In this document: positions 4,612 to 39,972 of the stretch, piece by piece
How positions within the stretch are numbered: position 1 is the first letter of the stretch
Layout: each line of letters opens with the position of its first letter
Assembly (NCBI GenBank): GCA_023664365.1
Contig: JAMPFR010000010.1
Span: 1-39,972, forward strand
Length of the DNA: 39,972 nt
Direction: 5' to 3'
Source: Acetatifactor muris
GTDB taxonomy: Bacteria; Bacillota; Clostridia; Lachnospirales; Lachnospiraceae
Notes under the pieces: generated by a model
Told to the model about the DNA's origin: nothing
Database searches by the model: none
The model's input: only the letters and a program-made list of their open reading frames with translations
Made by a program: the position numbers and the translations under genes

Positions 4612-4659
4612 CAGAAAGAGCAGAAAGGGCAGAAAGAGCAGAAAGAGCAGAAAGAGCAG
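4612..4659 (+). repeat. Tandem 9-bp repeat, unit CAGAAAGAG, 5.3 copies
   Basis: There are five consecutive units from 4612 to 4656 plus a partial sixth (CAG). The second unit differs by one base (CAGAAAGGG). The array lies in the untranslated leader between the putative promoter and the MATE gene. The 302-bp gap 4492-4793 otherwise holds the helD upstream region, this promoter and the hairpin that follows the array. Confidence 0.9.
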
Positions 4660-10849: not shown

Positions 10850-10880
10850 GTTGGAATAAAGGGTAAGACCAGATGGCAAA

Positions 10881-10920
10881 CACCGGAATTCACGCTTCGC
10901 AAAGATTCCGGTGTCATGAA
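10881..10920 (-). repeat. Dispersed hairpin repeat, copy D
   Basis: Read on the minus strand this copy begins TTCATGACACCGGAAT and closes with ATTCCGGTG around a loop containing GCGAAGCGT. Where copies A and C have AATAG/CTATT in the stem, this copy has ACCGG/CCGGT, so both arms changed together. It starts directly at the U-tract of the terminator at 10921-10950. Confidence 0.8.
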
Positions 10921-10950
10921 AAAGGGGAATGGCGCAAGCCATTCCCCTTT
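10921..10950 (-). terminator. Strong intrinsic terminator of the small membrane peptide gene
   Basis: A perfect 13-bp stem (AAAGGGGAATGGC with GCCATTCCCCTTT) closes a 4-base loop. On the minus strand five T follow, so it terminates the gene at 11022-11132. On the plus strand it may also stop transcripts from the serine hydrolase, but the T-run there is only three. Confidence 0.85.
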
Positions 10951-11021
10951 GTACAGTGTGCCTTGCGGCGCACGTTTGTCACAAAACTACATCGGATGAT
11001 GCACAGAGCCGGATATTTCAG

Positions 11022-11132
11022 TTAATCTTCCGAATCGGAATCCGCCGCCACTGCCGCAGATACGGAAGAAACCACCGCTACGATCACCGCAAATATAATT
11101 ACAAGAAGTCCGCCTGCCAATACTATAAACAT
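11022..11132 (-). CDS. 36-residue single-span membrane peptide, unknown function
   Basis: The peptide starts MFIVLAGGLLVIIFAVIV, continues with a small-residue stretch (SSVSAAVAA) and ends in the acidic tail DSDSED. One helix of about 22-25 residues would span the membrane with the acidic tail on one side. ATG 11132 follows GAGGCAG. A longer frame from 11210 exists but its extra 26 residues have no ribosome site. The gene has its own promoter (TTGTGA, 17 bp, TATACT) and a perfect-stem terminator, so it is a complete single-gene unit. I do not recognise a named family; a membrane-modulating or toxin-like peptide, or a regulator of a membrane complex, are possibilities only. Confidence 0.65.
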   Translation of the reverse strand: MFIVLAGGLLVIIFAVIVAVVSSVSAAVAADSDSED

Positions 11133-11167
11133 ATCTCTGCCTCTTTTCTGAAGTACTTGATATTCCA

Positions 11168-11196
11168 AGTATAGCATCTTTGTCCGGAAATCACAA
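11168..11196 (-). promoter_or_regulatory. Promoter of the small membrane peptide gene
   Basis: On the minus strand TTGTGA (11196-11191) and TATACT (11173-11168) are 17 bp apart, placing the transcript start about 30 bases before the ATG at 11132. Confidence 0.65.
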
Positions 11197-11229
11197 GTCA
11201 GAAAATGCAAAAAAATATTATATCGGGTA

Positions 11230-11258
11230 TTGACATTTTGTTTTCGATGATGTATATT
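11230..11258 (+). promoter_or_regulatory. Promoter of the Tad pilus operon
   Basis: A consensus TTGACA (11230-11235) and TATATT (11253-11258) are 17 bp apart. The predicted start near 11265 gives a leader of about 200 nt before cpaF. The 337-bp gap 11133-11469 holds this promoter, the minus-strand promoter above, a terminator-like hairpin, repeat copy A and a small GGCTG/CAGCC hairpin at 11348-11360. Confidence 0.75.
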
Positions 11259-11265
11259 TTAAAAT

Positions 11266-11298
11266 ACCCGCCGGGATTCGGCCGGGTGTCTGTTTTTT
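11266..11298 (+). terminator. Terminator-like hairpin at the 5' end of the pilus operon leader
   Basis: ACCCGCCG (11266-11273) pairs with CGGCCGGGT (11279-11287) with one bulged C, and six T occur at 11293-11298 after five other bases. It begins at the predicted transcript start, so it could act as an attenuator for the operon or stabilise the 5' end. Confidence 0.5.
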
Positions 11299-11343
11299 CA
11301 TGACAATGGAATTTTTGCGAGGCGTGAATTCTATTGTTTCATG
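11297..11343 (+). repeat. Dispersed hairpin repeat, copy A
   Basis: This copy starts TTCATGACAATGGAATT, has the loop TTTGCGAGGCGTG and returns as GAATTCTATTGTTTCATG, an imperfect long inverted repeat. Its first bases are the end of the T-run of the hairpin at 11266-11298. Confidence 0.8.
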
Positions 11344-11469
11344 TCCGGGCTGTTTCAGCCGCAAACGCAACACAGTATGCAGATAAAGACTACAGTGCAC
11401 GGTATTTTTTGCTGCAAAAGATGGGAGGGATGAACAATTAAAACTGAATATGGCGCGTCGGAGATCTCT

Positions 11470-12588
11470 TTGCAGAAGCTGGTGGAAGAGTATACTACCA
11501 GAAAGCAGCAGTCTCTGATGCAAATGAAGAAGGGTCTGGTATCGAAGGAGACGTTTCTGAAAGAGGCGTCCTCTTGTATTGCGGAATATTATCACAGGTC
11601 GGAGGCTGAGGACGCCGCCCTTCTGGCAGAATTCGAGCAATACATCTTCGGCTATTCCAGACTGTCAGGACTGATAGACGACAAAGCAGTGTCTGACATC
11701 CGGGTGGTGAGTCACGACAACATCCGGATCAAAAAGAAGGGGCAGCGGATGACGGCGGACGCCGCGTTTGCATCGCCCAAAGAATACAGGCAGTTTATCG
11801 ATTACATTGCCACAAGAAATCAGGTCAATATTTCCAATCTGAACGCAATTCAGCGGTTCACCGACAATGAGAGCCACCCGGATTTTATTCTCAGGTTTAC
11901 GGTCTCCATGCCGCTGGTGAACACCTATGACGAACCTTATCTCTGTATCAGAAAAATTCCGAAGGTCTTTCCCCAGATAAAGGACTTAATAGAACAGGGT
12001 ATGCTTGACCGGGAGACGGCGGAGCTTTTAATCTGCCGGTTTCGGGAAGGCTCTACGCTTATCTGCGGCGGCAATTCCTCCGGCAAGACCACGCTTTTGA
12101 ATGCCTTGAAGGAGACGCTGCCCGACAACTGCGCGGTTCTGGTGGCTCAGCAGGCGGATGAGCTGACTACCATGTTTCATCCTGACATGATGTTCCTTCA
12201 TTCTCTGCCTGGAACAGGGGAGCAGCAGGTCAGCTATGATCTGGAGCATATCAGCATAGCGGGGCTGACCATGGACGTGGATTTCTTTATCATAGGGGAG
12301 GTCAAGGGCGCCGAGGCAATGTATCTTCTGAACGCGGCATATACGGGGCAGATCTGTGCGGCGACCATTCATGCGCCGTCTGCGGATAAGGCCACCGCCA
12401 AGCTGGTGGACTACTGTCTGGGAAAGAGCAGATATGCCAGAGACGAACTGATGCGAATGCTGGATTGCTTTAAAACGGTTGTATTTATGGAGCATTACAG
12501 AGTAAAGGAAATATATGAGTGCAGAGGCTGGGACGAGGAGAGCAGAAGTCTGTCCTATGAAAAAATATTGGGAGGGAAAGAGGTTTGA
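11470..12588 (+). CDS. cpaF: CpaF/TadA family pilus assembly ATPase
   Basis: This hexameric secretion ATPase of the VirB11/CpaF family powers assembly of Tad (Flp) pili on the cytoplasmic face. The Walker A is GGNSSGKT at 200-207. A Walker B region FFIIGEVKGAEA and an AATIHAPSADKA segment matching the His box follow, and the N-terminal helical domain spans about 1-130. The printed start is TTG 11470 with GGAG 6 bases upstream. A stronger GGGAGGG lies 7-8 bases before an ATT codon at 11437 in the same frame, which would add 11 residues, while an ATG at 11430 hits a stop after three codons. The stop overlaps the next gene by TTGA. It heads the pilus operon. Confidence 0.9.
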   Translation: MQKLVEEYTTRKQQSLMQMKKGLVSKETFLKEASSCIAEYYHRSEAEDAALLAEFEQYIFGYSRLSGLIDDKAVSDIRVVSHDNIRIKKKGQRMTADAAFASPKEYRQFIDYIATRNQVNISNLNAIQRFTDNESHPDFILRFTVSMPLVNTYDEPYLCIRKIPKVFPQIKDLIEQGMLDRETAELLICRFREGSTLICGGNSSGKTTLLNALKETLPDNCAVLVAQQADELTTMFHPDMMFLHSLPGTGEQQVSYDLEHISIAGLTMDVDFFIIGEVKGAEAMYLLNAAYTGQICAATIHAPSADKATAKLVDYCLGKSRYARDELMRMLDCFKTVVFMEHYRVKEIYECRGWDEESRSLSYEKILGGKEV

Positions 12589-13421
12589 AGGTATTAATAC
12601 TGGTATTGCTGGTTACGGGTTTCTTTCTGCTGTTCAGGGAAATGAAAGTACTGAAGCATGTGGCGGATGCGCTGAAGAAAACCCGCAGTGAAATGAACGC
12701 CGCCGCCAGGCAGCGGAGCCTGGCGGACAGGCAGAGGCTGCTGAGTATGCAGGAGAAGCATTCCCGCTGGTATTCCCTGGAGCAGCAGCTGCAGTATTGC
12801 GGTATAAAGAGCCGGTTTCCCGGAATGACGGCGGAATGGTGGCTGTTGGGACATCTCACGGGGGCGGCGCTGCTGTTTACGACGGTATCCGCTGTGGGAG
12901 GCCCGGGAAAGGCGGCGCTGCTGGTCCTGGGCTGTGCAGGGGCGGAAGGGTTGTTTCTGCGGCGGCTGAGAAGGAAAAATTTTCGGCGCACGGAGGAAAA
13001 TCTTACAAAGCTGCTGGATTTTCTGGGTAATTACAGTATCACTTCGGGGGAGATCACCGGAATCTTCGGACAGATCAGCAGATATATGGAGGAGCCGGTA
13101 AAGAGCGCTCTGGATGCCTGCTGCTATGAGGCGGCTACCACGGGGGATGTGGGAATGGCGCTGTCAGCCATGGCGGAGCGTATAGAACACCCGAAGTTCA
13201 GGGAACTGGCCCGGAATATGGAGGTCAGCGTCCGGTACTGTGCGGATTTTTCCGTTTTGGTAAACAGCAGCAGAAGAAGCCTGCGGGAATACCTGCGAGT
13301 GGCCCGGGAGCGGAGAGGCATGCTGCGGGAAGGAGCCGTCAATCTTGCGCTGCTGGCAGGGATGTCGGTGGTGGTACTGCTCATTGTGGGAAGCTTCACC
13401 GGAAGCGGCCGGGGCTTTTAA
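12585..13421 (+). CDS. tadB: TadB-like inner membrane platform protein (type II secretion F family)
   Basis: This 278-residue protein has an N-terminal membrane segment (about 2-18), a basic cytoplasmic stretch, two membrane segments (about 86-104 and 109-125), a helical GspF-type cytoplasmic domain and a last membrane segment (about 250-272). TadB and TadC together form the platform that the CpaF ATPase acts on. The start is TTG 12585, 8 bases after GGGAGGG and overlapping the cpaF stop. No ATG lies close by in frame. TadB versus TadC is assigned from gene order and topology. Confidence 0.8.
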   Translation: MKVLILVLLVTGFFLLFREMKVLKHVADALKKTRSEMNAAARQRSLADRQRLLSMQEKHSRWYSLEQQLQYCGIKSRFPGMTAEWWLLGHLTGAALLFTTVSAVGGPGKAALLVLGCAGAEGLFLRRLRRKNFRRTEENLTKLLDFLGNYSITSGEITGIFGQISRYMEEPVKSALDACCYEAATTGDVGMALSAMAERIEHPKFRELARNMEVSVRYCADFSVLVNSSRRSLREYLRVARERRGMLREGAVNLALLAGMSVVVLLIVGSFTGSGRGF

Positions 13422-13434
13422 GGCGGAGGAAGAT

Positions 13435-14274
13435 ATGGAAGAAATGCAAATAAAAATTGTGATAAATGCAGTCTCGGCACTGACGGCAGCAGAGGTGTTT
13501 GTTGCGCTGAGGATGCTTGGGAAAAGCGGGGAACGGCGGAAAAAGCTGTTAAAGGCATATTATGAGATTTCGGGACTTCTGCGGGAAAAGGGCAGATCCG
13601 GCAGCCTCTATCAGAAAGGAATGAGCTGGCTGTTGAAAAACGGCGCCCCCTGCCATTACGGAAGGTGGGTGGAACCGGTTCGCTTTCTGGCCTGCTGCGT
13701 GGTATTGGGACTGGCAGGGGTTCTGGCGTGTGCACCGCTGGGAGCGGGATATGGGGCGGCGGCATTTTTCCTGCTGGGGTTTCTGCCGGTGTGGCTGCTG
13801 CAATATCTGAACAAAAAGGATAACGAAAAGCTGCTGCCGGAGCTGAAGCTGGTGTACCATGCTCTGGAAATTCAAATCAGAGCGGGCGTTTATGTAACCG
13901 ACGCGATGGCGGAGTGTTACGGTAACGTACAGGAAAAGCGCCTCAGGCAGGCGCTGCTGGAGCTGGCGGGAGATATTGTGATGAAGGCGGACGTACATGA
14001 TTCCCTGGAACGGTTTCAGGGAAAGTTCAGCAACGCCCACATCGATTCCCTTTGTATCATTATCCTGCAGGCCCTGGAATCGGGACAGGCGGTGGAACTG
14101 CTGCAGGATATCGGAGAACAGGTGAAGGATATGGAGGCGGCGGTACTGGAACGCAAAAAGGCGGCATTAGACAGGAAACTTACCTTCTGCCAGCTGGGAG
14201 TGCTGACGGTGGTGCTGGGGATTGCGCTGTATCTGTGCGTAAGCTACATGTTCGGCGCAGCGTCCCTGTTTTAA
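13435..14274 (+). CDS. tadC: TadC-like inner membrane platform protein (type II secretion F family)
   Basis: This 279-residue protein has an N-terminal membrane segment (about 5-25), a hydrophobic pair around 80-125, a GspF-type cytoplasmic helical domain with the LLPELKLVYHALEIQIRAGV segment and a C-terminal membrane segment. It is the second half of the TadB/TadC platform. ATG 13435 is preceded by GGCGGAGGAAG. The longer frame to 13345 overlaps tadB and lacks a ribosome site. It lies 13 bp after tadB. Confidence 0.8.
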   Translation: MEEMQIKIVINAVSALTAAEVFVALRMLGKSGERRKKLLKAYYEISGLLREKGRSGSLYQKGMSWLLKNGAPCHYGRWVEPVRFLACCVVLGLAGVLACAPLGAGYGAAAFFLLGFLPVWLLQYLNKKDNEKLLPELKLVYHALEIQIRAGVYVTDAMAECYGNVQEKRLRQALLELAGDIVMKADVHDSLERFQGKFSNAHIDSLCIIILQALESGQAVELLQDIGEQVKDMEAAVLERKKAALDRKLTFCQLGVLTVVLGIALYLCVSYMFGAASLF

Positions 14275-14299
14275 CGTTAAGAGGAAAAGGAGGAAAACA

Positions 14300-14527
14300 A
14301 TGATAGAAGCATGGAAATACAGGATGATGAAGGTGTGTCGTTATGTGAAAAGGCAGGCAATGAAAAAGGAGCCGGGGATAGACGGCATACTGGTGACAGT
14401 GGGACTGTGTATCATAGCACTTCTGCTGTGCGTGGTGATGAAGGACAGTCTGACTACATTTATCAAGACGCTGGTGGACGCCATGACAGAAAAGGCACAG
14501 CAGATACTGACGGGAGTGAGCGCATGA
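14300..14527 (+). CDS. Flp-like type IVb pilin, putative major or minor pilus subunit
   Basis: This 75-residue protein has a basic 25-residue leader, a Gly at 26 and then one long hydrophobic helix (IDGILVTVGLCIIALLLCVV), the size and plan of Flp pilins. Cleavage after Gly26 by the prepilin peptidase at 20519 would leave a 49-residue mature subunit. Classical Flp pilins have Glu at mature position 5; here that position (31) is Leu and only Asp28 is acidic, so it is atypical. The ribosome site AAAAGGAGG is the best in the operon, consistent with high expression. Its stop overlaps the next start as ATGA. It could instead be a minor pseudopilin. Confidence 0.7.
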   Translation: MIEAWKYRMMKVCRYVKRQAMKKEPGIDGILVTVGLCIIALLLCVVMKDSLTTFIKTLVDAMTEKAQQILTGVSA

Positions 14528-14880
14528 AAAAGGAGAAAGGAAGCATAGGCGATTTGCTGGCGGCATGTATCTGCATGGTTCTGATGACCCTGCTGCTTGT
14601 GTCCTATATGGACAGTGTGCGCCTGGTGGATGAAAAGACGGAAATCAACCAGATAGCAAGAAAGTATATTCTGCGGATGGAGACAGTGGGTATGCTGACG
14701 GAGAGCGACAGGCGGCTTATCGAAAGAGAACTGGAAGCGGCGGGAGCATCGGAGGTAAGCCTGGAGGGCACCACCTTTGAGCGGGTGGGCTACGGGGAAG
14801 AAATAGTGCTCAAAATCAGAGGAAAGCTGAGGGGAATCTATGGATTTGAAGAAAAAAGGATGTCTACTGCAAAGTACTGA
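14524..14880 (+). CDS. Pseudopilin-like Tad locus protein (resembles DUF4320)
   Basis: This 118-residue protein starts MKKEKGSIGDLLAAC. That is a short basic leader with Gly6 as a possible prepilin cleavage point, followed by one hydrophobic helix (about 10-28) and a soluble domain with INQIARKYILRMET and a C-terminal strand region. This is the plan of DUF4320/TadE-like minor pilins that occur in clostridial Tad loci. It starts at ATG 14524 overlapping the pilin stop; the longer open frame from 14311 is an antisense-free artefact of the pilin gene's second frame. It overlaps the next gene by 41 bp. Confidence 0.7.
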   Translation: MKKEKGSIGDLLAACICMVLMTLLLVSYMDSVRLVDEKTEINQIARKYILRMETVGMLTESDRRLIERELEAAGASEVSLEGTTFERVGYGEEIVLKIRGKLRGIYGFEEKRMSTAKY

Positions 14881-15427
14881 GCGCGGTCAGATTGGCTGGG
14901 CGCTGGGGCTGTGGTTCATGCTGTTTCTGGGAATTCTGCTCTGCGCTCTTTTGCAGCTGGAGATATTCCGGGCGTCTTCTCAGTATATGGAGGACGCCCT
15001 GGCCGCATCCAATCTGGCTGCAGCGGTAATAGATGTGGAGGAGTACGGCATCTCTCACAAGCTGCAGATTCATGATACCGGGGAGGCTTATGACCGGTAT
15101 CGAAAGGCCGTCAGGGCGAATTTAAGTTTAAATGATTTATGGGAATGTGAAAATAAGGGACTGATTTCAGGGCCGGTCCGCATTGAGAACTTTACGGTGT
15201 ACAATGTCAGCGGCAGTCAGGTGGAGGTATGCAGCTTTGGCGAAAACGGAACGGAAGTCCGCAGGTACGGAACCCTGGGCAGTGAGACGGCGCCTAATGG
15301 AATGAAGGTGGAAAACACGGGAATATACAGTGAAATATCCTACCGGATCAAGGGAGTGCTGGGAATTGAAGTGACCGCCAGAAAAGGGAAGCTGGTGGAT
15401 GTGGTAAAGAGTGAAAGGAATTTCTGA
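14840..15427 (+). CDS. TadE/TadF-like pseudopilin
   Basis: This 195-residue protein has a short basic leader (MDLKKKGCLLQSTERGQIGW), one membrane helix (about 20-42) and an extracytoplasmic domain of about 150 residues rich in beta strand. TadE/F/G proteins have this layout and serve as minor pilins or pilus-initiation factors. The candidate cleavage Gly is in ERGQIGW. ATG 14840 follows GAGGGG inside the end of the previous gene. Identification is by context and topology rather than by a clear domain hit. Confidence 0.65.
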   Translation: MDLKKKGCLLQSTERGQIGWALGLWFMLFLGILLCALLQLEIFRASSQYMEDALAASNLAAAVIDVEEYGISHKLQIHDTGEAYDRYRKAVRANLSLNDLWECENKGLISGPVRIENFTVYNVSGSQVEVCSFGENGTEVRRYGTLGSETAPNGMKVENTGIYSEISYRIKGVLGIEVTARKGKLVDVVKSERNF

Positions 15428-15452
15428 AAAATAAAAAAGGATGGGAAAATAT

Positions 15453-16133
15453 ATGAAGAAAAGAGAAAACATGAAAAAAGAAAAGCTGAGCCGGGAAGCT
15501 GTGACTGAAAGGTGGAAGGCGGGTGGTATGGCTGCCGCATTAATTGCGGCAGCGGCAGTTTTTGCCGTGATGCTTCAGCTGGAGAAGAGTATGCTGACAA
15601 AGTATGAAAAGGGGACGGTGTATGCCGCTGCGGCGGAAATACCAAAGGGCCAGATGATTACGGCGGACAATCTGAGCCTCTATTTTCAGGAGAAAGCACT
15701 GGACAAGTCCTGTATTCCGGAAAGCGCGCTGCGCAGTCCGGAGCAGGTGACGGGTCTGGCGGCGGTCTTTGACATTGAGCAGGGGGTACTGCTGTCAGAG
15801 GGCATGTTTGAGTCATTGGATGATGTGCTGGAGGAGATCAGCGATCCGGTGGTGGCCGGGTTTAAGGCGGAAGATCTCTATCAGGTGGTCGGCGGTGTGC
15901 TGCGGGCCGGGGACAGAATCCATATTTACAGTGTGTCGGAGGAGGGGGAAGTATCGCTTGTCTGGAGCAATGTCTATGTGCAGGAGGTGTTTGACCAGTC
16001 GGGCGCCGGAATTGTAAGCGGCGATAAGGTGACGGCGGCTCAGCGGATCAATATTTATCTGGACAAAAAGGATGTGGAGACATTTTACTCTGAACTGGCA
16101 GGCGGAGCACTCCGGGTTGTCAAGGTCTTTTAA
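15453..16133 (+). CDS. cpaB: CpaB/RcpC-like Flp pilus assembly protein with SAF domain
   Basis: This 226-residue protein has a charged leader, one membrane segment (about 24-42) and an extracytoplasmic SAF-type domain beginning VYAAAAEIPKGQMITADNLSLY, the pattern of CpaB/RcpC. A second domain (about 125-226) includes an AGDRIHIYSV strand pair. In Tad systems CpaB is thought to guide or stabilise the growing pilus at the cell envelope. I prefer ATG 15453 with AAGGATG 9 bases upstream over ATG 15441, which abuts the AAAAGG. Confidence 0.8.
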   Translation: MKKRENMKKEKLSREAVTERWKAGGMAAALIAAAAVFAVMLQLEKSMLTKYEKGTVYAAAAEIPKGQMITADNLSLYFQEKALDKSCIPESALRSPEQVTGLAAVFDIEQGVLLSEGMFESLDDVLEEISDPVVAGFKAEDLYQVVGGVLRAGDRIHIYSVSEEGEVSLVWSNVYVQEVFDQSGAGIVSGDKVTAAQRINIYLDKKDVETFYSELAGGALRVVKVF

Positions 16134-16157
16134 TAAATGTGATAAAGGGGGAAATGA

Positions 16158-19100
16158 ATGAAGAGAGGAATTCTGGCAGCGCTTCTGACGGTGCTTTCGA
16201 CCGTTCTGCTTTTGGGGGCAGAACCTGTGTCGGCGGCTCCCGTAAAGACAATCTATAGCAGTCCCTATGTGTCCTTTTCTCCGGATGGGCTGGCATGGAC
16301 GACCAACTCCGGGGACAGGAGCATTCAATGGTATCAGAAGGGCATGACGGTGAATACGGGAATTTCGTCTGCTCTGCGGAAGCCGGAGGAGGGAGAACAT
16401 TATTATTACAGGCAGGCGGAAGAGTCGGTGCCGGTAGGGCGCTGGGTAGTGGAGCATACGGCGGGGCAGTGTATCCATGCCGAGTATCCGTCGGATTACC
16501 ATGGCATCAGCTATGGACGGCGGCATTGCGAAACCGGACATTATTCCGGCTGGCGCGCCTACTGTGCGGACTGCGGGGAAGTAATCTCCGATCTTTTTGT
16601 TTATATGAGCAGGGAAGCAGCGGAAACCATAGATTATATTCCGATGGGGATGGATTATTATTATCTTTGTCCCTTCTGCAGCAATCTGGAGCAGGGAAGA
16701 GAATTCAGGCACATGTGTAAAGCAGTTTCGGCCAATATGTACAGAGTAATCTATGATGCAAATTTTCCGGCGGACGCAGAAAATCCTACAGGGTACATGG
16801 CGCACAGCCTTCATATGTACGGAGACGCGGAGGAGTATGAAGGAATCAAGCTGACGCCGGTGAGAGAGCTGTCCTTAAATACATACGGCTGTACGGGATA
16901 CCGGTTTGTCGGATGGAATACAATGCCGGACGGCAGCGGCGAGACTTATGAGGACGGAGCCGTAATAAAAAACCTGACCTCTGAGAACTGGAACGGCAGA
17001 TCCGGCCGTAACGAGAAAGGTACCGTTATTCTCTATGCCTGCTGGGAACCGGTGGAAAGTACGCTTCTGATAGACTCTGCCGGAGGCGCTTATGCGGGAA
17101 GGAGCGGTATTACCCGGGTCACAAAACGGTATGGTGAAACGTATACACCGGATGCCTCCCTGCTGGAGCCGCCGGAGGGATATACAATAGAGTTTCAGGT
17201 AAACGGGGGAGAGGCAGTCAGTCCGGTCAAAGCAAATCTGTACTTTTTGGAATGGGCCATGACGCAGCCCTTTTCCGGCCTTTTTAAAAACGGAATTTAC
17301 AGATATACAGCGTCGGAGGGAAACAGGGATACTCTGCAGGCGGTTTACGGGACGGAAAGTATAGTGCTGCCCCGGCCGGAGCGGGAAGGATATTCTTTCG
17401 GAGGCTGGTATTATGATGCGGCGTTCCGGCTTCCCGCAGGCAGCGCAGGGGACTCTGTTACGCCCGGACGGAATATGACGCTTTATGCGCAGTGGGTGGA
17501 TCTGACACTGAAAGCGGCGGATAATTACCGGGCCTACGGAGGCAGCGGAGCCGTGGATCTTTCCTGGCAGATGCAGGACGGACAGGGAAAAACTTATCTG
17601 CTGTATCAGAGCACTGACGGAAAGGATTGGGTGCAGGTCAGTGCCGCCGATGACGTCTGCAATGTGCCGGACATTCATATGGCGTCAGAAAAGACAGGTA
17701 AGACAGAAAAATACACTGTACCTTATACCGGAATCTATACTATCAGCCTGTCCGGTGCCCAGGGCGGCAGCTATAAAGACAGTGAAGGAGGCAGGGGAGG
17801 CAGCGCCGAAGTCAGGATATGGCTGGAGAAGGGCGAGGTACTCACCTTTGAGGTGGGCGGCGCCGACGGATATAACGGAGGCGGTAAAGGCAGCGTATAT
17901 GGCTGTGGAGGAGGCTGTACGGTGGTTTCCTCCGACAAAAAAGGAGTCATTGCGGTGGCAGGAGGCGGAGGCGGCGCCTCAGAAAGCGGCGATGGCGGCG
18001 TCGGAGGCAGTTCTGCATTTCTGGGGGAGGCCGGGTATGCGGGAGAAGACGGTATGGCGGGAGGCGGAGGCGGCTTCCGGGGCGGTGCAGCCGGAGAGTA
18101 TGTGGCTCATGCGCACACGCCTGCCTGTTACAGGGAAATCAGCGGCACAATCAGCGCGGGCTCCGATTTTTACAACGCATATGACACAGAGTGCAGCGGC
18201 GTGTATGGAAAGAGTATGACGGTTTCAGGGCTGAGCGTCCGCGCCTACGCGCATTCCAGTACAAAGCAGCCTTCCATAAACCTGACGGTGGGCAATAAAA
18301 ATACCTGTTTGGAAACACCCTATGCAGGCACCCTGACCTTTTCGGATACAACCATAAATTCCCTGTATGATGTGTGGGGGGTGGGAGCAAACAGTACACT
18401 GACTAAAATAACGGTCTTTTTTCTGCATGAGGATGGGAGAATTACAAGCGAGACGGTGATGCCGGAGCAGTTAGGCAATACGCTTTCCGTAACCACGGAC
18501 GTCTGGTACAGCCAGGGCCCCTATCGTGCGGAAAGACCCGTATATACCCGGAATGTCTCCCAAAAGCGGTTTTCGGGAAGTATAGAAACCAGGCCCGGCG
18601 CGTCATGCGAATATCCGGCAGGCGCATTTCACGGCACGACGGAGTGGTATCGGCTGGACGGCACCTTTGTGTTTGAAGTGGAGGAGGATGTGACGGGAGT
18701 GTATATCGAGGCGGCCAGGTCAATTCCCATGGGGAACGTGAACTGCTGGATGAGCATCGGAGTACAGAATGTGCAGTACAGGTACGACGGCAGAGAATTG
18801 CAGTGCGGATATGAGGAAGGGCAGATTGAGTCTGCGCTGCCCGCATACGGAGGCAGCAGCTATGTAAATACGGAGGTTGTGCTGGATTACACCCTGACGC
18901 CCGGAGACAGAGAAGGAGACGGCTGTGCAGGTCTTGAAGCCGTACAGCTGGGATTCTGGGAGGAGCAGGCACTGGAAAATGTAAAAGCACCGGATCTGGC
19001 GGCTCCCTGCGCAGTTTCCGTGGAGACGGCAGAAATGCTGCCTGCAGGAAAAGACAGGGTATCCGTTTCCTGGAAAAAGCCGAAGGATAACGGCACGATT

Positions 19101-20522: not shown

Positions 20523-20965
20523 GCCGGGTGCTTTGGGGTATGATTGCCGTATGCCTGTTGTTTGCCTGCATGACGGACTGCAGGAGCCGGGAGGTGTACA
20601 ATGTTACCTGGTGGGCGGCAGGCGCTGCGGCAATCCTGCTTTTACTGGAAGAAAGGCACAGGCTTGATATTCGGTTTTGCGCGGAGCTGGCATTTTTTAT
20701 CGCACTGCAGCTGACACTGTTTACAAAAATGTACGGCCGGGCGGATTGCTATGCCTTCAGCGTCTGTGCCGTGGCGGAGGCAGCCGCCGGACTGTCCCTG
20801 GCGGGCTATTTTATTCACATGCTGCTTTCTTTTATTTTACTTGCATTTGTACAGGCGCTGCGCCATAACATTGGCAGAGGAGGAAATCTGCGGCGGCCCG
20901 TGCCGTTTCTGCCATATATAACCCTTGCTTTCTGGGCGCTGCTTTGGTATAGTGTAACTGTTTAG
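20519..20965 (+). CDS. A24 family prepilin peptidase (TadV/CpaA-like)
   Basis: This 148-residue protein has about four membrane helices. The two catalytic aspartates of the A24 family are Asp20 in CMTDCRSREVYN and Asp76 in YGRADCYAF, the latter replacing the usual GxGD by GRAD. A late RPVPFLPYI segment is also typical. It is a minimal peptidase without the methyltransferase domain, as in Tad systems, and should cleave the Flp-like pilin and pseudopilins of this operon. It overlaps the preceding stop by ATGA. Confidence 0.85.
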   Translation: MSRVLWGMIAVCLLFACMTDCRSREVYNVTWWAAGAAAILLLLEERHRLDIRFCAELAFFIALQLTLFTKMYGRADCYAFSVCAVAEAAAGLSLAGYFIHMLLSFILLAFVQALRHNIGRGGNLRRPVPFLPYITLAFWALLWYSVTV

Positions 20966-20978
20966 AGGAAGGTGCGGC

Positions 20979-22004
20979 ATGATTACGATTTCCCTGTGTA
21001 TGATTGTAAAAAATGAAGAAAAGATACTGAGGAGATGTCTGGACAGCATAGCGGATCTGGTGGATGAAATTATTATTGTGGATACGGGATCCGGGGATGG
21101 AACGAAGGATGTTGCTGCAGAGTATACAGAGCAGATTTATGATTTTGAATGGACGGATGATTTCAGCGCAGCGAGAAATTTTGCTTTTTCCAAAGCCTCA
21201 ATGGAATACATATATTCCGCTGACGCGGACGAGGTGCTGGACGGAGAGAACCGGAGACGGTTCCGGCAGCTGAAGGAGACGCTGCTTCCGGAGATTGAAA
21301 TTGTGCAGATGAAATACGGGAACCAGCTGCAGTTTAACACAGTGTACAATTATGACCGGGAGTACCGCCCGAAGCTGTTTAAGCGGCTGAGGGAGTTTGT
21401 GTGGGAGGCGCCCATACATGAGACGGTGCGGCTGATGCCTCTGGTCTATGACAGCGATATTGTCATCCGGCATATGCCGGAGAACAGTCATTCCGGCAGA
21501 GATCTGGAGAACTTCCGCCGCCACTGCGGGGAAGGGTATCGGCTTCCCAAACGTCTCCACAACATGTATGCCAGGGAACTGCTGATGGCAGGGGAAAAGG
21601 AGGATTTTGACCTTTGCGCGGACTTTTTTGCCGCATCTGCGGAGGACGGAAGCAGGGACAGCGAAGAAATTGCGGAGGCATGCTGCATTGTGGCGCACGC
21701 TGCCAGGCTGGCGGGGGATACGGTGCGATTTTTTAAGTATACCTCTAAGGTGATTGCGGGTGAGGCAAACTCGGAAATCTGCTGTGAACTGGGGCACTTT
21801 TATGAAGCTGCCGCAGATTATGAGGAGGCGGCGGTCTGGTATTACAATGCCGTGTATGAGACCCGGCCGATTCTGAATATCCGGGCCGGAGGCAGCGAAG
21901 GCTTAAAGGGCTTGATTCGATGCTATGAACAGCTGGGGTGTCCCGAACAGGTAAAAGAGTACGAAGAGGAACTGAAACAGCGGACGGACGAAGGAGAACA
22001 GTAA
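20979..22004 (+). CDS. Family 2 glycosyltransferase with C-terminal TPR-like region
   Basis: This 341-residue protein starts ISLCMIVKNEEKILRRCLDSI, the start of GT2 enzymes, with a DTGSGDGT nucleotide-sugar loop and the metal-binding D82-A-D84 in SADADEVLD. After about residue 190 the chain becomes a series of amphipathic helices resembling TPR units. This GT2-TPR combination occurs in protein O- or S-glycosyltransferases (SunS type) and in cell-surface glycan enzymes. It begins 13 bp after the prepilin peptidase behind GAGGAAGGTG, so it is likely part of the pilus transcript. Glycosylation of the pilin or adhesin is a possible job but is inference. Confidence 0.8.
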   Translation: MITISLCMIVKNEEKILRRCLDSIADLVDEIIIVDTGSGDGTKDVAAEYTEQIYDFEWTDDFSAARNFAFSKASMEYIYSADADEVLDGENRRRFRQLKETLLPEIEIVQMKYGNQLQFNTVYNYDREYRPKLFKRLREFVWEAPIHETVRLMPLVYDSDIVIRHMPENSHSGRDLENFRRHCGEGYRLPKRLHNMYARELLMAGEKEDFDLCADFFAASAEDGSRDSEEIAEACCIVAHAARLAGDTVRFFKYTSKVIAGEANSEICCELGHFYEAAADYEEAAVWYYNAVYETRPILNIRAGGSEGLKGLIRCYEQLGCPEQVKEYEEELKQRTDEGEQ

Positions 22005-22006
22005 AG

Positions 22007-23077
22007 ATGAAGTGGGAAGCCAATGTGCGCAAGGTGGTGCCTTATGTGGCGGGAGAGCAGCCGGATAAGCCGGATGTGATTAAACTGAATACAAATGAGT
22101 GCCCTTATCCTCCGGCGCCGGGAGTGGCCGGAATGGCAGCCGGGATGGATTGCACTGCGTTGCGGCTCTATCCCAACCCTGACGGAGCGCCCCTGGCGGA
22201 GGCTCTTGCGGCTTATTATCATGTAGATCCGAAGCAGGTGTTTGTGGGTGTGGGTTCGGATGATGTGCTGGCCATGTCGTTTCTGACATTTTTCAACGGC
22301 AGTGCACCCATATTGTTTCCTGACGTGACCTATTCCTTTTATGACGTCTGGGCGGATTTATACAGGATTCCCTACAGAACCTGTCCTCTGGATGACGCCT
22401 GGCATATTTGTCCTGAGGACTATAAGCAGCCAAACGGCGGTGTGATTTTCCCCAATCCCAATGCGCCCACCGGAGTGTCGGAAAGCCTGGAGACGGTGGA
22501 GAAAATCCTGGCGGCAAACAGGGATGTGGTGGTGATTGTGGATGAGGCCTATGTGGACTTTGGAGGAACCAGCGCCCTGCCGCTGCTGAAAGAGTATGAT
22601 AATCTGCTGATAGTGCAGACCTTTTCCAAGTCACGGGCTCTGGCAGGACTGCGGATCGGTTTTTGCATCGGCAGTGAAAAGCTGATCGGATATTTGAAGG
22701 ATGTAAAGTTTTCCTTTAATTCCTACACCCTGAATCTGCCGGCCCAGCTGTTGGGAGTGGAGGCGGTGAAAGACCGGGCATATTTTGAGGAAACCACGGC
22801 AAAGATTATCGCCACCAGAGAACGGGTGAAGCAGGAGTTAAGAGGGCTGGGGTTTACCTTTCCGGACTCCGGGGCGAATTTTATTTTTGCCACTCATAAA
22901 TCTGTTCCTGCAAAGCAGATTTTCCAGGCGCTGCGTGAGGCGGATATTTATGTGAGATACTGGGATAAGCCCAGGATTTCGGAATATCTTCGGATCACTG
23001 TGGGCACTGATGAGCAGATGGATAAGCTGCTGGCGTTTTTAAGGGAGTATGTGAAGGGCGCGGAAACACGGTCATGA
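22007..23077 (+). CDS. HisC-like PLP-dependent aminotransferase (histidinol-phosphate aminotransferase type)
   Basis: This 356-residue class I/II aminotransferase has the PLP Lys208 in QTFSKSRALAGLRIGF. Other HisC-type features are KLNTNECPYPPAP near the N-terminus, VVIVDEAYVDF before the lysine and YLRITVGT near the end. Histidinol-phosphate is the classic substrate, converted to imidazole acetol phosphate with 2-oxoglutarate, but solitary HisC paralogues may act on aromatic amino acids. It starts at ATG 22007, two bases after the glycosyltransferase stop. No other his gene is present. Confidence 0.85.
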   Translation: MKWEANVRKVVPYVAGEQPDKPDVIKLNTNECPYPPAPGVAGMAAGMDCTALRLYPNPDGAPLAEALAAYYHVDPKQVFVGVGSDDVLAMSFLTFFNGSAPILFPDVTYSFYDVWADLYRIPYRTCPLDDAWHICPEDYKQPNGGVIFPNPNAPTGVSESLETVEKILAANRDVVVIVDEAYVDFGGTSALPLLKEYDNLLIVQTFSKSRALAGLRIGFCIGSEKLIGYLKDVKFSFNSYTLNLPAQLLGVEAVKDRAYFEETTAKIIATRERVKQELRGLGFTFPDSGANFIFATHKSVPAKQIFQALREADIYVRYWDKPRISEYLRITVGTDEQMDKLLAFLREYVKGAETRS

Positions 23078-23148
23078 GATGCAGGCAATCCGGTAAAGCA
23101 CCGGCGGCAGAAGGCAGCAAATAATAGAAAGAAAGCAGGAAAAATTGA

Positions 23149-24000
23149 ATGATTAAGAGTATTTTAAAGGGTATTGTAATCGGAATCGCAAATATTGTTC
23201 CCGGAGTCAGCGGCGGTACAATGATGGTGTCCATGGGAATTTATGACAGGCTGATTCACTGTATTACCCATCTGTTCAGCGAATTCAAGAAAAGCGTGAA
23301 ATTTCTTTTCCCCATAGCGGTGGGTATGCTGGCTGCCATTGTGGGAAGTTCATTTGCGCTGAAGGAACTGTTTGTAAGGATCCCCATTCAGACCAACCTG
23401 CTCTTTGTAGGGTTGATTCTCGGCGGTCTTCCCGCCATTTGGAAAAATGTAAAGGGGAATCGTATTAAAATCGGCCATATCATAGCGGCCCTTGCTTTTT
23501 TTGTACTGGTGGCGGGAATGGCCGCCATGGGAGACACAGAAGGAAAGGCGGTGAATCTTTCCTTCAGCTTTGCAAATGTGCTGATACTTTTTGCGGTGGG
23601 AGTAATTACTTCCGCCACCATGGTGATACCCGGAGTCAGCGGTTCCATGGTACTGATGCTGATGGGCTTTTACGAGCCCATACTTGTGTCCATAACGGAT
23701 TTTATCACAGCGCTGGTGCATTTGGATATGAATGGAATTCTGGCGGGCTGCGGTATTCTGATTCCATTTGGCGTCGGTGTGGTTGCGGGGATTTTCGGAA
23801 TTGCCAAGCTGGTGGAGATTATCTTTGAAAAGTTTCCGCTGTATGCCTACTGGGCAATTATCGGTTTGATTGTGGCTTCTCCGGTGGCGATTCTGCTGAT
23901 GAATCTGGGAGTATTCTCGCAGATAACGGCTTTCAGCGGGGTGACAGGTGTAATCGCGTTGGCAGCAGGCTTTTTTGTGGCGTTGAAGCTTGGCGACTAG
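23149..24000 (+). CDS. DUF368 membrane protein (PopT-like polyprenyl-phosphate translocase)
   Basis: This 283-residue protein has about eight hydrophobic segments. It opens with the DUF368 signature IGIANIVPGVSGGTMMVSMG and repeats a related motif (TMVIPGVSGSMVLMLMG) in the second half, an inverted-repeat transporter plan. DUF368 proteins (PopT) have been shown to recycle undecaprenyl phosphate across the membrane for cell-wall synthesis. ATG 23149 follows AAAGCAGGA, 71 bp after the aminotransferase. A small CCGGT/ACCGG hairpin at 23090-23104 has no U-tract. Confidence 0.85.
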   Translation: MIKSILKGIVIGIANIVPGVSGGTMMVSMGIYDRLIHCITHLFSEFKKSVKFLFPIAVGMLAAIVGSSFALKELFVRIPIQTNLLFVGLILGGLPAIWKNVKGNRIKIGHIIAALAFFVLVAGMAAMGDTEGKAVNLSFSFANVLILFAVGVITSATMVIPGVSGSMVLMLMGFYEPILVSITDFITALVHLDMNGILAGCGILIPFGVGVVAGIFGIAKLVEIIFEKFPLYAYWAIIGLIVASPVAILLMNLGVFSQITAFSGVTGVIALAAGFFVALKLGD

Positions 24001-24040
24001 CGCCGTAAAGAATCTGCGGAAGCCGGGGAGGGAATGGAAG

Positions 24041-24835
24041 ATGGGAATGTATCGGGATTTTGCCGCAGTGTATGATACTTTTATGGATAATACGCCCTAT
24101 GAACTATGGGGAGACCGCCTGGATAAGCTTATCAGAAAATACGGGGTGTCCAGGCCGGAGCGGGATGCAGAGGATATTCTGGATTCCGAACGGAATCTGG
24201 TGGTGGATTTGGGCTGCGGCACAGGTACACTGACAGAATTGATGTATCGGAAAGGATATGATATGATCGGTGTGGATACGTCGGAGGCCATGCTGAACAT
24301 TGCCATGGAGAAAAAGGAGAAGAGCGGCTCCGAAATTCTCTATCTGATGCAGGATATGCGGGAGCTGGATCTGTACAGCACCGTGGGAACCGTGTTCAGC
24401 GTCTGCGACTCCCTGAATTACATTCTGGAGGAAGAAGAGCTGCTGACGGTGTTTTCGCTGGTGCGTAACTATCTCTTTCCCGGAGGAATTTTCGTGTTTG
24501 ATTTCAATACGGATTATAAGTACAGGGAAGTCATCGGAGATACTACCATTGCGGAAAACAGGGAGGACTGCAGCTTTATCTGGGAAAACATTTATGACCC
24601 GGAGGAGGAAATCAATGAATATGACCTGACTGTGTTTGTCCGGGAGGAAGATGACAGGTTCCGGCGGTTTACAGAGACACATTTGCAGCGGGGCTATACA
24701 GTCGAACAGATAGGAGAGCTGGTTCGACAGGCAGGGCTGAAGCTTCTGGAAATGACGGACGCCGACGCCGGTGGAGAGGCCGGGCCGGAAAGCCAGCGGG
24801 TACTGGTAGTGTCATGCCGGGAAGACGGAAAATAA
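24041..24835 (+). CDS. Class I SAM-dependent methyltransferase
   Basis: This 264-residue protein has motif I VVDLGCGTGTLTE (about 54-66), motif II IGVDTSEAML and a later SVCDSLNYI segment, with a beta-rich insert near the C-terminus. It belongs to the broad methyltransferase 11/25 group, and the acceptor cannot be named. ATG 24041 has GGGGAGGG upstream. The longer frame from 23990 overlaps the DUF368 gene without a ribosome site. Confidence 0.8.
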   Translation: MGMYRDFAAVYDTFMDNTPYELWGDRLDKLIRKYGVSRPERDAEDILDSERNLVVDLGCGTGTLTELMYRKGYDMIGVDTSEAMLNIAMEKKEKSGSEILYLMQDMRELDLYSTVGTVFSVCDSLNYILEEEELLTVFSLVRNYLFPGGIFVFDFNTDYKYREVIGDTTIAENREDCSFIWENIYDPEEEINEYDLTVFVREEDDRFRRFTETHLQRGYTVEQIGELVRQAGLKLLEMTDADAGGEAGPESQRVLVVSCREDGK

Positions 24836-24860
24836 GTATAAGGGCATAAGAGGTGCGGAT

Positions 24861-25739
24861 ATGAGGGATTACATTGTGCGGGCAACGGCTGCAGATGCGC
24901 AGATACGCTGCTTTGCCTGTACCACCGGAGAACTGGTGGAGAAGGCAAGGCAGATTCACAATACAAGCCCGGTGGTGACGGCTGCCCTGGGACGGCTGCT
25001 GAGCGCAGGGGCCATGATGGGAAGTATGCTGAAGGGAGAAAAGGATTTGCTGACCCTGCAGATCAAAGGAGACGGGCCCGTGCAGGGGTTGACGGTGACT
25101 GCAGATTCTCAGGGGAATGTGAAGGGCTATCCGGAGACGGCAGATGTGATTCTGCCTGCAAATGCCGCGGGCAAGCTGGATGTGGCGGGGGCCGTAGGAC
25201 AGGGCAGCCTGCGGGTTATTAAGGATATGGGCTTAAAGGAGCCTTATGTGGGCCAGACTTTATTGCAGACCGGGGAGATTGCCGAGGATTTGACCTATTA
25301 TTTTGCGGCTTCCGAACAGGTTCCCTCTTCGGTGGGGCTTGGAGTGCTGATGAACCGGGACAACACGGTAAGGCAGGCAGGAGGCTTTATTGTTCAACTG
25401 ATGCCCTTTGCGGAGGAGGCAGTAGTCAGCAGGCTGGAGCAGAACCTGAGTCAGGTGCGGTCGGTGACGGCAATGCTGGACGAAGGAAAATCGCCGGAGC
25501 AAATACTGGAAATTCTGCTGGAGGGTCTGCATCCCGCAGTGAGCGATACTATGGCGGCCCTGTTTTCCTGCAGCTGCAGCCGGCAGAAAATAGAAAGGGT
25601 GCTGATTAGCCTGGGGAAACAGGAGATCGGGGACATGATAGAGGAAGGGCAGGAGATAGAGGTCAACTGTCATTTCTGCAATACCCGCTATAAATTTACC
25701 GTAGATGAATTAAAGGAACTGTATCGGAAAAGCAGATAA
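24861..25739 (+). CDS. hslO: Redox-regulated chaperone Hsp33
   Basis: This 292-residue protein has the Hsp33 fold and the full zinc switch: Cys237-x-Cys239 (SCSCSR) and Cys270-x2-Cys273 (CHFCNTRY). Under oxidation the four cysteines release zinc and form disulfides, unfolding the linker and activating holdase function in the cytoplasm. The N-terminal start MRDYIVRATAADAQIRCFA is typical, and ATG 24861 follows AAGAGGTG. It ends 11 bp before a strong terminator, closing the plus-strand run that began with the pilus operon. Confidence 0.95.
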   Translation: MRDYIVRATAADAQIRCFACTTGELVEKARQIHNTSPVVTAALGRLLSAGAMMGSMLKGEKDLLTLQIKGDGPVQGLTVTADSQGNVKGYPETADVILPANAAGKLDVAGAVGQGSLRVIKDMGLKEPYVGQTLLQTGEIAEDLTYYFAASEQVPSSVGLGVLMNRDNTVRQAGGFIVQLMPFAEEAVVSRLEQNLSQVRSVTAMLDEGKSPEQILEILLEGLHPAVSDTMAALFSCSCSRQKIERVLISLGKQEIGDMIEEGQEIEVNCHFCNTRYKFTVDELKELYRKSR

Positions 25740-25750
25740 AAGGGCAGATA

Positions 25751-25779
25751 AAAAGGATGTGTGGGCCGCACATCCTTTT
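25751..25779. terminator. Bidirectional intrinsic terminator after hslO
   Basis: AAAAGGATGTG pairs with CACATCCTTTT (11-bp stem). T-runs follow on both strands (TTTTCATT on plus, TTTTTATC on minus), so it can stop both hslO and the converging gene at 25853. Confidence 0.85.
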
Positions 25780-25781
25780 CA

Positions 25782-25815
25782 TTCATGACAATAGATTTTT
25801 GGCGAAGCGTGAATG
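25782..25815 (+). repeat. Dispersed hairpin repeat, copy B (degraded right arm)
   Basis: The left arm and loop are conserved (TTCATGACAATAGATTTTT, then GGCGAAGCGTGAAT) but the right stem arm has been replaced by GC-rich sequence. A separate hairpin follows at 25825-25841 (GCCGGC, CGAAA, GCCGGC). As in the other copies, it begins right after a terminator U-tract. Confidence 0.7.
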
Positions 25816-25852
25816 CCGGTGCCTGCCGGCCGAAAGCCGGCCCCGGGAAGAC

Positions 25853-26329
25853 CTACTGTGAAGCGGAGGCTTTATCCAGGGAGCTTTTTATGGATTCCAG
25901 CAGGACCAGAGAGGTATATTTACTGTCGGAGGAATAGGTGACGCCCTCCAGCGTCTGCAGTTCGTAAACCTGGCTGCAGATGGAATCGAAGGTGGGCTCC
26001 AGCAGGGGATACATGGTGGTGATGGCGTCGTTCAGGTTTACCATGCGGATGGAAGTAATGGAATGACTGTCCACAATGACCTCCACGTCGATAGATTGAT
26101 TTCCCAGCACCAGCTCGGTGGTATAGACGCCGGGTATGTAGAGAGCCTCTGAGTCTGCGGCAGTGGGATCCTCCTCCGAAGTCCGGCTGTCCGGGGCAGG
26201 GTTTTCCTCCTTGCCGGGCAGGAACATCATGATAAGCAGTACTATGAACAGGATGCCCAGAGCGGCAAAGATTGCGGTATAAATCAGTTCCTTCATGTGA
26301 AGCACAACTATCTTTGTTTTAGCACTCAT
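25853..26329 (-). CDS. Membrane-anchored protein, possibly FMN-binding-domain-like
   Basis: This 158-residue protein has one N-terminal membrane helix (about 16-37), an acidic low-complexity linker (EENPAPDSRTSEEDPTAADS) and an extracytoplasmic domain from about residue 65 beginning YIPGVYTTELVLGNQSIDVEVIVD. The strand pattern and the final SLVLLESIKSSLDKA helix resemble small FMN-binding domains that receive covalent flavin on a Thr/Ser, but the flavinylation motif is not evident. The start ATG 26329 has AAGGGG upstream; a second ATG at residue 12 would also keep the anchor. It is monocistronic and divergent from glnA. Function is unknown. Confidence 0.6.
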   Translation of the reverse strand: MSAKTKIVVLHMKELIYTAIFAALGILFIVLLIMMFLPGKEENPAPDSRTSEEDPTAADSEALYIPGVYTTELVLGNQSIDVEVIVDSHSITSIRMVNLNDAITTMYPLLEPTFDSICSQVYELQTLEGVTYSSDSKYTSLVLLESIKSSLDKASASQ

Positions 26330-26340
26330 TTATATTCCCC

Positions 26341-26369
26341 TTGGTTGTCATAAATTTTTTCTTTATAAT
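26341..26369 (+). promoter_or_regulatory. Possible upstream promoter for glnA
   Basis: A perfect TATAAT (26364-26369) lies 17 bp after TTGGTT (26341-26346). A transcript from here would include the full leader with both alternative hairpins. The -35 box is weak. Confidence 0.35.
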
Positions 26370-26410
26370 AAGTATGTGGGGGCAGCAGGGTTTATGCTAA
26401 GGATTTCTCA

Positions 26411-26439
26411 TTGACAAGAAGGCTTTGCGTTGTTATGAT
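26411..26439 (+). promoter_or_regulatory. Strong promoter for glnA
   Basis: A consensus TTGACA (26411-26416), a 17-bp spacer and TATGAT (26434-26439). The predicted start near 26446 is only a few bases before the leader terminator hairpin. Confidence 0.75.
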
Positions 26440-26451
26440 AAAGAACAGGAC

Positions 26452-26489
26452 AAGGGCGTTCTATGAGGAGATAGGACTGCCCTTTTATT
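26452..26489 (+). terminator. Leader terminator (attenuator) upstream of glnA
   Basis: AAGGGCGTTCTAT (26452-26464) pairs with ATAGGAC-T-GCCCTT (26471-26484), 13 bp with one bulge and one G-U pair. It closes loop GAGGAG and is followed by TTTTATT. It lies between the promoters and glnA with no gene before it on this strand, so it is a leader terminator. AGAAC at 26442-26446 can pair with GTTCT at 26458-26462, a competing hairpin that would break the terminator stem. Confidence 0.65.
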
Positions 26490-26530
26490 CATGACAATAG
26501 AATCCTCGCAAAGCGTGGATTCTATTGTTC
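26488..26530 (+). repeat. Dispersed hairpin repeat, copy C
   Basis: This copy reads TTCATGACAATAGAATCC, then loop TCGCAAAGCGT, then GGATTCTATTGTTC. The 11-bp stem CAATAGAATCC/GGATTCTATTG (26495-26505 and 26517-26527) is perfect. It starts at the U-tract of the glnA leader terminator and ends 22 bases before the glnA start. Confidence 0.85.
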
Positions 26531-26552
26531 GCTGGAAAGGAAGGGGCGTATT

Positions 26553-39871: not shown

Positions 39872-39972
39872 ATGCAGACAAATGTGTCCGGAGTATCTGA
39901 TGTATCCGTTGGATCCAATGTATCCGTTGGATCCAATGTATCCGTTGGATCCAATGTATCCGTTGGATCCAA
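39872..39972 (+). CDS. Start of a hexapeptide-repeat protein (VSVGSN), truncated by window edge
   Basis: ATG 39872 sits six bases after GGAGG (39861-39865) and opens a frame with no stop to the window end. It reads MQTNVSGVSD, then VSVGSN repeated. The unit is 18 bp, so copy-number changes keep the frame. No signal peptide is seen in the 33 codons available. Degenerate repeats (VSGVSD) precede the perfect ones. The repeat region is also open on the minus strand (LDPTDT repeats ending at TAA 39838-39840), but that frame has no visible start here. I favour the plus strand because of the ribosome site. The product is unknown. Confidence 0.55.
   Translation, partial: MQTNVSGVSDVSVGSNVSVGSNVSVGSNVSVGS
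39901..39972. repeat. Perfect 18-bp tandem repeat, four copies, continuing past the window
   Basis: The unit TGTATCCGTTGGATCCAA occurs four times without a mismatch and ends exactly at the window edge. It contains the 10-bp palindrome TTGGATCCAA. Identical copies imply recent expansion or active homogenisation. Confidence 0.95.

Follow-up and report, generated by a model that had tools for sequence, protein, structure and literature searches.

How did four copies of one short hairpin repeat come to lie in a single stretch of Acetatifactor muris (Lachnospiraceae) DNA, each directly behind a terminator-like hairpin? The stretch, here called the window, comprises 39,972 nucleotides (nt) of contig JAMPFR010000010.1 (assembly GCA_023664365.1) and is one contig of a 3.86 Mb draft genome. 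A sequence-only reading had offered two answers: a mobile palindromic element that targets terminators, or an RNA module that acts after termination. The analysis favours the first of these. The repeat is very probably a non-autonomous mobile element of 40 nt, similar to repetitive extragenic palindromic (REP) sequences and moved by an enzyme acting in trans. The unit consists of CATGACA, an imperfect hairpin (apex CGCGAAGCG) and TGTT.

The four copies, named A to D, lie where the sequence-only reading had placed them. In the window the word TTCATGACA is found four times and no more, against a mean of 0.22 in 100 shuffles, not one of which reached four; every occurrence is the start of one copy. 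A repeat finder also pairs the copies: B, C and D fall into one direct group, and A is paired in inverted orientation with B and with C. Copy A (10879..10918, minus strand) is a 40-nt unit of CATGACA, a hairpin with the CCGG stem variant and TGTT, and is preceded by a terminator hairpin and T-run at 10921..10950 (minus). Copy B, also a 40-nt unit (11299..11338, plus), follows a terminator-like hairpin at 11264..11289 (plus), near which a motif scan placed a promoter-like site (11230-11258). Copy C (25784..25823, plus) follows the terminator (25751..25779, plus) of the HSP33 gene (24861-25739). The 40-nt copy D (26490..26529, plus) has as its target a terminator-like hairpin at 26452..26484 (plus) in the glutamine synthetase leader. 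Each of the four thus stands directly 3' of, and in the same orientation as, a hairpin with a T-run, as had been claimed, and the sequences of these hairpins are unrelated. The four terminators were revealed by folding; a simple terminator scan listed none of them. A stem shared by all copies was also proposed, and this holds for A, B and D (single-strand folding z-scores of -3.9, -2.6 and -6.9, D being the best fold) but not for C (+0.85). Copy C is decayed: the tip and the 5' part are retained and the 3' arm, AATGCCGGTG, is unable to pair with CAATAGATT.

Unoccupied sites argue for mobility. Copy D is absent in three relatives (83-86% identical DNA), which keep the terminator as CCCTTTTATT^(C/A)GTTGG, where the caret marks the insertion point. 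Because these relatives without copy D keep the terminator up to that point, the inserted unit is exactly 40 nt: the difference between occupied and unoccupied sequence is CATGACA, the hairpin and TGTT. A second site is occupied in genome G091 (locus L065) and unoccupied in this genome (L043, TATT^TTCGC). The difference is again 40 nt, the flanks are 80% and 92% identical and the inserted unit ends in TGTA. The target is not duplicated at either clean site, except possibly for a TT. At these two sites the aligned sequences show the repeat inserted into a T-tract as a 40-nt unit. The sequence-only reading had let the repeat begin at the T-run; the T-run and ATT before the insertion point are present at unoccupied sites and belong to the target. 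Further relatives were left out of this judgement as too diverged at the junction.

Tandem arrangements have the same period. A CATGACA-like start follows at exactly 40-nt spacing behind 5 of 203 copies, with a degenerate second unit in one of them; a sixth tandem reported by the script, at a spacing of 38, was spurious and was excluded. A further 40-nt tandem was recognized by eye in L048. Five copies in this genome are identical across the 40 nt. Together, the unoccupied sites, tandems and identical copies mark the repeat as recently mobile, and its patchiness and placement also speak for a mobile palindromic element that targets terminators.

Rearranged copies were also seen. In G218 a copy stands on the opposite side of the same HSP33 terminator that precedes copy C and points the other way. 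Between the TTCATG and the stem of this copy (L231, about 3580-3650) lie about 24 nt of other sequence, and almost the same stretch is found next to the copy in L007 of this genome, which looks as though a copy had taken adjoining DNA with it. In G102 (L307, 3926-4033) three units that derive from the repeat stand in tandem with a period of 36 nt instead of the usual 40. In G198 (L351, about 5576) a tandem pair has the stem-loop of its first copy inverted, with TTCATGACAA unmoved.

A covariance model built from 14 copies, of the kind the sequence-only reading had proposed, gave 30 strong matches (E < 2e-6) in this genome. Among same-genus genomes 48 of 121 contain a match, this genome counted, and 73 do not. 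Counts per genome run from 0 to at least 51, the richest being G198 (at least 51), G019 (33), this genome (G000, 29), G021 (21), G014 (19) and G201 (16). In a sample of the family, 14 of 150 Lachnospiraceae genomes have a match, again with this genome counted; G167 (33 matches) and G091 (23) are copy-rich genomes outside the genus. Searched for exactly, a strict pattern matched 0 of 40 other same-genus genomes, for which the covariance model is the better test. In the GTDB species genomes the strict pattern matched 107 stretches. Among the 80 of these that were listed, 63 are titled Lachnospiraceae or carry the names of genera that we take to be members (two say just Eubacterium), and 14 titles name neither the family nor such a genus. 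The other three, all from one assembly, name Muribaculum, which belongs to another phylum, and a binning error may explain them. The repeat family is patchy across Lachnospiraceae gut bacteria. Among the matches listed by literature searches, with subscription journals outside their scope, no earlier description of the repeat was present.

The stems are specific to genomes. At positions 9-16 the identity between copies of this genome and those of G167 is 0.34, against 0.82-0.84 within each. Compensation between genomes is plain in the letters: AATAG/CTATT here and AAGGAAAAG/CTTTTTCTT in G167. Stem co-variation had also been pointed out between the window copies, where it is present with the labels swapped: CCGG/CCGG belongs to copy A and AATAG/CTATT to copy D. 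In the 14 founding copies both sides have changed at 4 pairs (1.1 in shuffles). In 156 distinct sequences the doubly changed cells number 267; 300 shuffles gave 96 on average and 120 at most, and slid partners gave 46-111. Covariation, whose absence in a larger alignment the sequence-only reading had named as a refutation, was thus recovered by most measures, although not by all. Much of the conserved information lies in the 5' CATGACA and in the tip with its apex. On these alignments the stems appear to covary between genomes, with the 5' tag and the tip conserved. GCGAAGC is an unusually stable DNA mini-hairpin, and its presence at the tip hints at single-stranded DNA.

The insertion sites have a clear preference. 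Before the element, 138 non-redundant copies have T at -5 (90%), T at -4 (75%) and A at -3 (73%). For the terminator test, the 42 nt before the T-tract were folded with a cut-off on minimum free energy (MFE) of < -10 kcal/mol. A hairpin passing this cut-off precedes 82 of 138 copies, compared with 256/2280 intergenic T-tracts of the same loci (odds ratio about 11.6, Fisher p about 2e-38) and 220/2000 coding controls. With T-richness matched, 57/91 copies and 158/1490 controls have a hairpin; under a stricter stem score it is upstream of 67/138 copies and in 38/800 TTTATT controls. Genomes differ: the fraction with a hairpin below -10 is 20/27 in this genome and 5/10 in G102. In 118 of the 133 copies with such a hairpin, 3-10 nt separate the end of the stem from the insertion point (3 being the minimum the fold allows), and separate stem scoring gave a distance of 2-11 nt with a peak at 6-8. 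The terminator association is therefore real, about tenfold in odds, and not universal. That copies 'always' begin at a terminator is true of the window (4/4) and not of the genome as a whole or of the wider set, whereas the absence of any association, named beforehand as grounds for giving up the idea, was not observed. In sum, the copies evidently favour TTTATT^, mostly a few nt behind the stem of a terminator and in the same reading direction. Strand was also compared with GC skew: they agree for 27/31 copies in G167 and 6/9 in G102, and GC skew is positive on the element strand at 93/132 loci. A replication-strand rule was rejected as not strict.

These features suggest a mechanism. An enzyme would recognize a hairpin with a T-tract as single-stranded DNA and cut 3' of the T's. 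The end of the element (hairpin-TGTT^) and a terminator (hairpin-TTTATT^) would look alike to it, so that a terminator would serve as target by resembling the element's own 3' end. The piece to be moved would be labelled by CATGACA and by the GCGAAGC tip. With a cut behind 'hairpin + T's', exactly the 40 nt that follow a terminator would be freed, and they could be joined behind another terminator or another unit. One cut rule would in this way explain why the element has these ends and this orientation, why it prefers terminators and why its tandems have a 40-nt period. Whether this amounts to a new single-strand transposition system, with a non-Y1 enzyme, a 'hairpin + T-tract' cut site, every intrinsic terminator as a ready-made target and an element whose 3' end is a terminator mimic, is a more tentative matter, and we put its chances at somewhat below even. 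If true, it would be a 40-nt mobile DNA with all recognition contained in a hairpin and a short 5' tag. The usual explanation for short palindromic repeats in bacteria is a Y1 transposase; in this family the ends are sharp, sites are found unoccupied, the target rule is clear and the repeat is abundant in several genomes without a Y1 match. Stable hairpins placed behind genes and in the glutamine synthetase leader may affect where transcripts end and how genes are controlled in bacteria that are common in the gut.

A number of results weigh against this reading. Searches for Y1 transposases, for reverse transcriptases and among neighbouring genes yielded no moving enzyme, and the enzyme, the single-strand step and the cuts are what we infer. 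Clean unoccupied sites number only two. Copy B is absent in G218 with a junction that is not clean, and copy A is partial there, with the 3' half deleted. The TT that follows the preferred bases, at -2 and -1, is partly built in, as the search models and patterns contained TT. In 56/138 copies no hairpin below -10 precedes the element; these stand at T-tracts, and a T-tract may suffice. Such copies fall outside the cut rule unless a T-tract alone is sometimes enough. A hairpin was found in just 15/36 copies in G167 and 5/16 in G198. Even when the sequence on the element's other side is read in reverse, a stem is found there in 15/138 copies at the lowest cut-off, above the 38/800 of the controls. 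The strand bias in GC skew fits replication as well as it fits co-orientation with terminators. As for the stem, paired cells make up 90% in the 156 sequences (78% in shuffles, 33-51% with slid partners), a percentage inflated because the set had been pre-filtered to sequences with 8 or more of the 12 pairs. Double changes occur in 12 pairs, a count that the shuffles reach at their maximum (12) and the slid controls surpass (13-14).

Among the known systems that come closest to the repeat is REP/REPIN with its transposase TnpA-REP (REP-associated tyrosine transposase, RAYT). It is unlikely, if still worth keeping in mind, that the repeat is a REP proper, that is a palindrome moved by a Y1 tyrosine transposase that is lost or missing in the assemblies without Y1. 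The repeat shares with REP/REPIN a length of 20-40 nt, a conserved 4-nt tag at the base of an imperfect, mismatch-interrupted hairpin (here CATG, on the 5' side), intergenic spread, non-autonomy, genome-specific families and stems, tandem units and many copies. A Y1 match (PF01797) is present in 49 of 138 same-genus genomes, including G014, which is rich in copies (19 repeat matches) and whose Y1 is intact. Outside the genus, G167 (13 Y1 pieces) and G091 (4 Y1 pieces) have Y1 matches as well as many copies. However, REP tags are given as GTAG or CGTC in an excerpt of PMC3733652, and the repeat has neither; its tag is CATG and its insertion mostly behind terminators. The REP-type transposase that the sequence-only reading had suggested was sought in this genome and no Y1 match was found, nor was one found in G198, G019, G021, G201, G102, G130 or G053, of which G130 and G102 bear copies outside the genus. 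Of the six same-genus genomes with the most repeat matches, G014 alone has a Y1 match; the five without one include this genome. Among same-genus genomes with at least five repeat matches, Y1 occurs in 5/17 (G014, G026, G193, G218 and G222, of which G193 and G218 have a broken or incomplete Y1), compared with the 49/138 overall. The 20 Y1 loci scanned (L071-L090) contain no repeat match at E up to 1. In this genome a search for the GTAG or CGTC tag and for a Y1 gene with the repeat on its flanks found neither, and for that reason the repeat was not filed as REP. Judged by presence, Y1 is neither required nor fully excluded.

For the trans-acting enzyme of the preferred reading, the search was widened to the surroundings of the copies. 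An enzyme outside the searched families may be present. Clustering of 611 open reading frames (ORFs) at 156 loci, some of them overlapping, gave no mobility-like gene among the 25 clusters listed, and a common neighbouring gene as the mover was rejected on these 25. The largest of them, ABC ATPases, covers 17 loci, and neighbours are mostly unrelated. A phage or plasmid carrier was also rejected. The strict pattern is absent from IMG/VR and plasmids gave no repeat match by BLAST. Of 28 matched records titled 'Bacteriophage sp.', the three examined are all UNVERIFIED faecal clones whose ten scanned ORFs match bacterial families (e.g. DNA polymerase A and a phosphoenolpyruvate (PEP)-utilising enzyme), and these records were taken for bacterial chromosome.

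Improbable, too, is a parasite of group IIC introns, in which an intron ribonucleoprotein that itself targets terminators would insert the hairpin. An excerpt of PMC4424553 describes group IIC introns as inserting directly after an intrinsic terminator's stem and T-tract, which is the same side of the stem and the same orientation as for the repeat (82/138 copies, so not universally), and a partial view of PMC10190682 has a Eubacterium rectale intron solved while bound to a DNA stem-loop target. Unlike these introns, the repeat is only 40 nt long, without ribozyme domains or a reverse transcriptase. A match to the reverse transcriptase family RVT_1 was found in 7 of 10 copy-bearing genomes and in none of G102, G178 and G053, and a reverse transcriptase was rejected as the common factor. 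In this genome the best RVT_1 match (L095) is of UG26 type (PADLOC) and lies beside an RT-5 RNA (Rfam RF03026), the other is weak (27 bits), and at the Rfam gathering score neither of the two loci has a group II intron RNA.

A still poorer candidate is a classical miniature inverted-repeat transposable element (MITE) of a DDE insertion sequence, with its terminal repeats making up the whole element. Its nearly perfect inverted repeats, ACAATAGAA/TTCTATTGT, would fit, but the two clean sites show no target-site duplication beyond an ambiguous TT, the apex is conserved and the CATGACA tag is one-sided. A parent insertion sequence was looked for through left-end matches, of which there are 116 in six genomes; 51 distinct ones were examined (loci L310-L359). 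Eleven of the 51 have no nearby 3' arm, and the 0.4-2 kb behind each were examined for a right end. One was found 91 nt from one lone left end and another 1512 nt from a second; this more distant right end belongs to a fragment that has a 5' arm itself. In the loci examined, no parent sharing the ends of the repeat is evident. Copies with only the 5' part outnumber those with only the 3' part, yet many loci were chosen via the 5' end.

The other answer of the sequence-only reading, a host regulatory RNA module for 3'-end protection or readthrough control, could point to the covarying stem, the conserved tip and the position of B and D between a promoter-like site and a gene, but is very improbable: it was rejected on the unoccupied sites (three close relatives have the terminator without copy D, one of them has also lost the 3' half of A, and copies are not kept at orthologous sites) and on the mostly unrelated neighbouring genes, and the repeat also has no match in 73/121 same-genus genomes and no Rfam 15 match among known structured RNAs in the window or in six loci (E up to 0.05).

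Short words concentrated at terminators are known from the Neisseria and Haemophilus uptake sequences, which form the terminator itself; the 40-nt repeat is instead a separate hairpin behind it. Like the repeat, SPRITE of Streptococcus pneumoniae is an interspersed Firmicute repeat linked to gene 3' ends and terminators, as far as the excerpt of PMC3049150 goes. According to the same excerpt SPRITE resembles a terminator itself, having a duplex of 18 bp and a U-rich tract, whereas the 40-nt repeat sits behind the host's own terminator.

Within the window the copies form two close pairs (10879-11338 and 25784-26529) with one small ORF inside each, a pair density far above the genome average of 30 per 3.86 Mb. 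On the minus strand at 11022-11132 is a 36-amino-acid hydrophobic peptide with an acidic tail, whose DNA is well conserved in G218 and G252. The glutamine synthetase leader (26411-26552) has a promoter-like site and a hairpin, GGACAAGGGCGTTCT...AGGACTGCCCTTTT. An Rfam search gave no meaningful match; both arms of the hairpin are present in 23/29 same-genus loci, and it is a candidate conserved attenuator. Finally, a 9-bp repeat lies at 4612-4659, and a perfect 18-bp tandem repeat occupies the end of the window (39900-39972).

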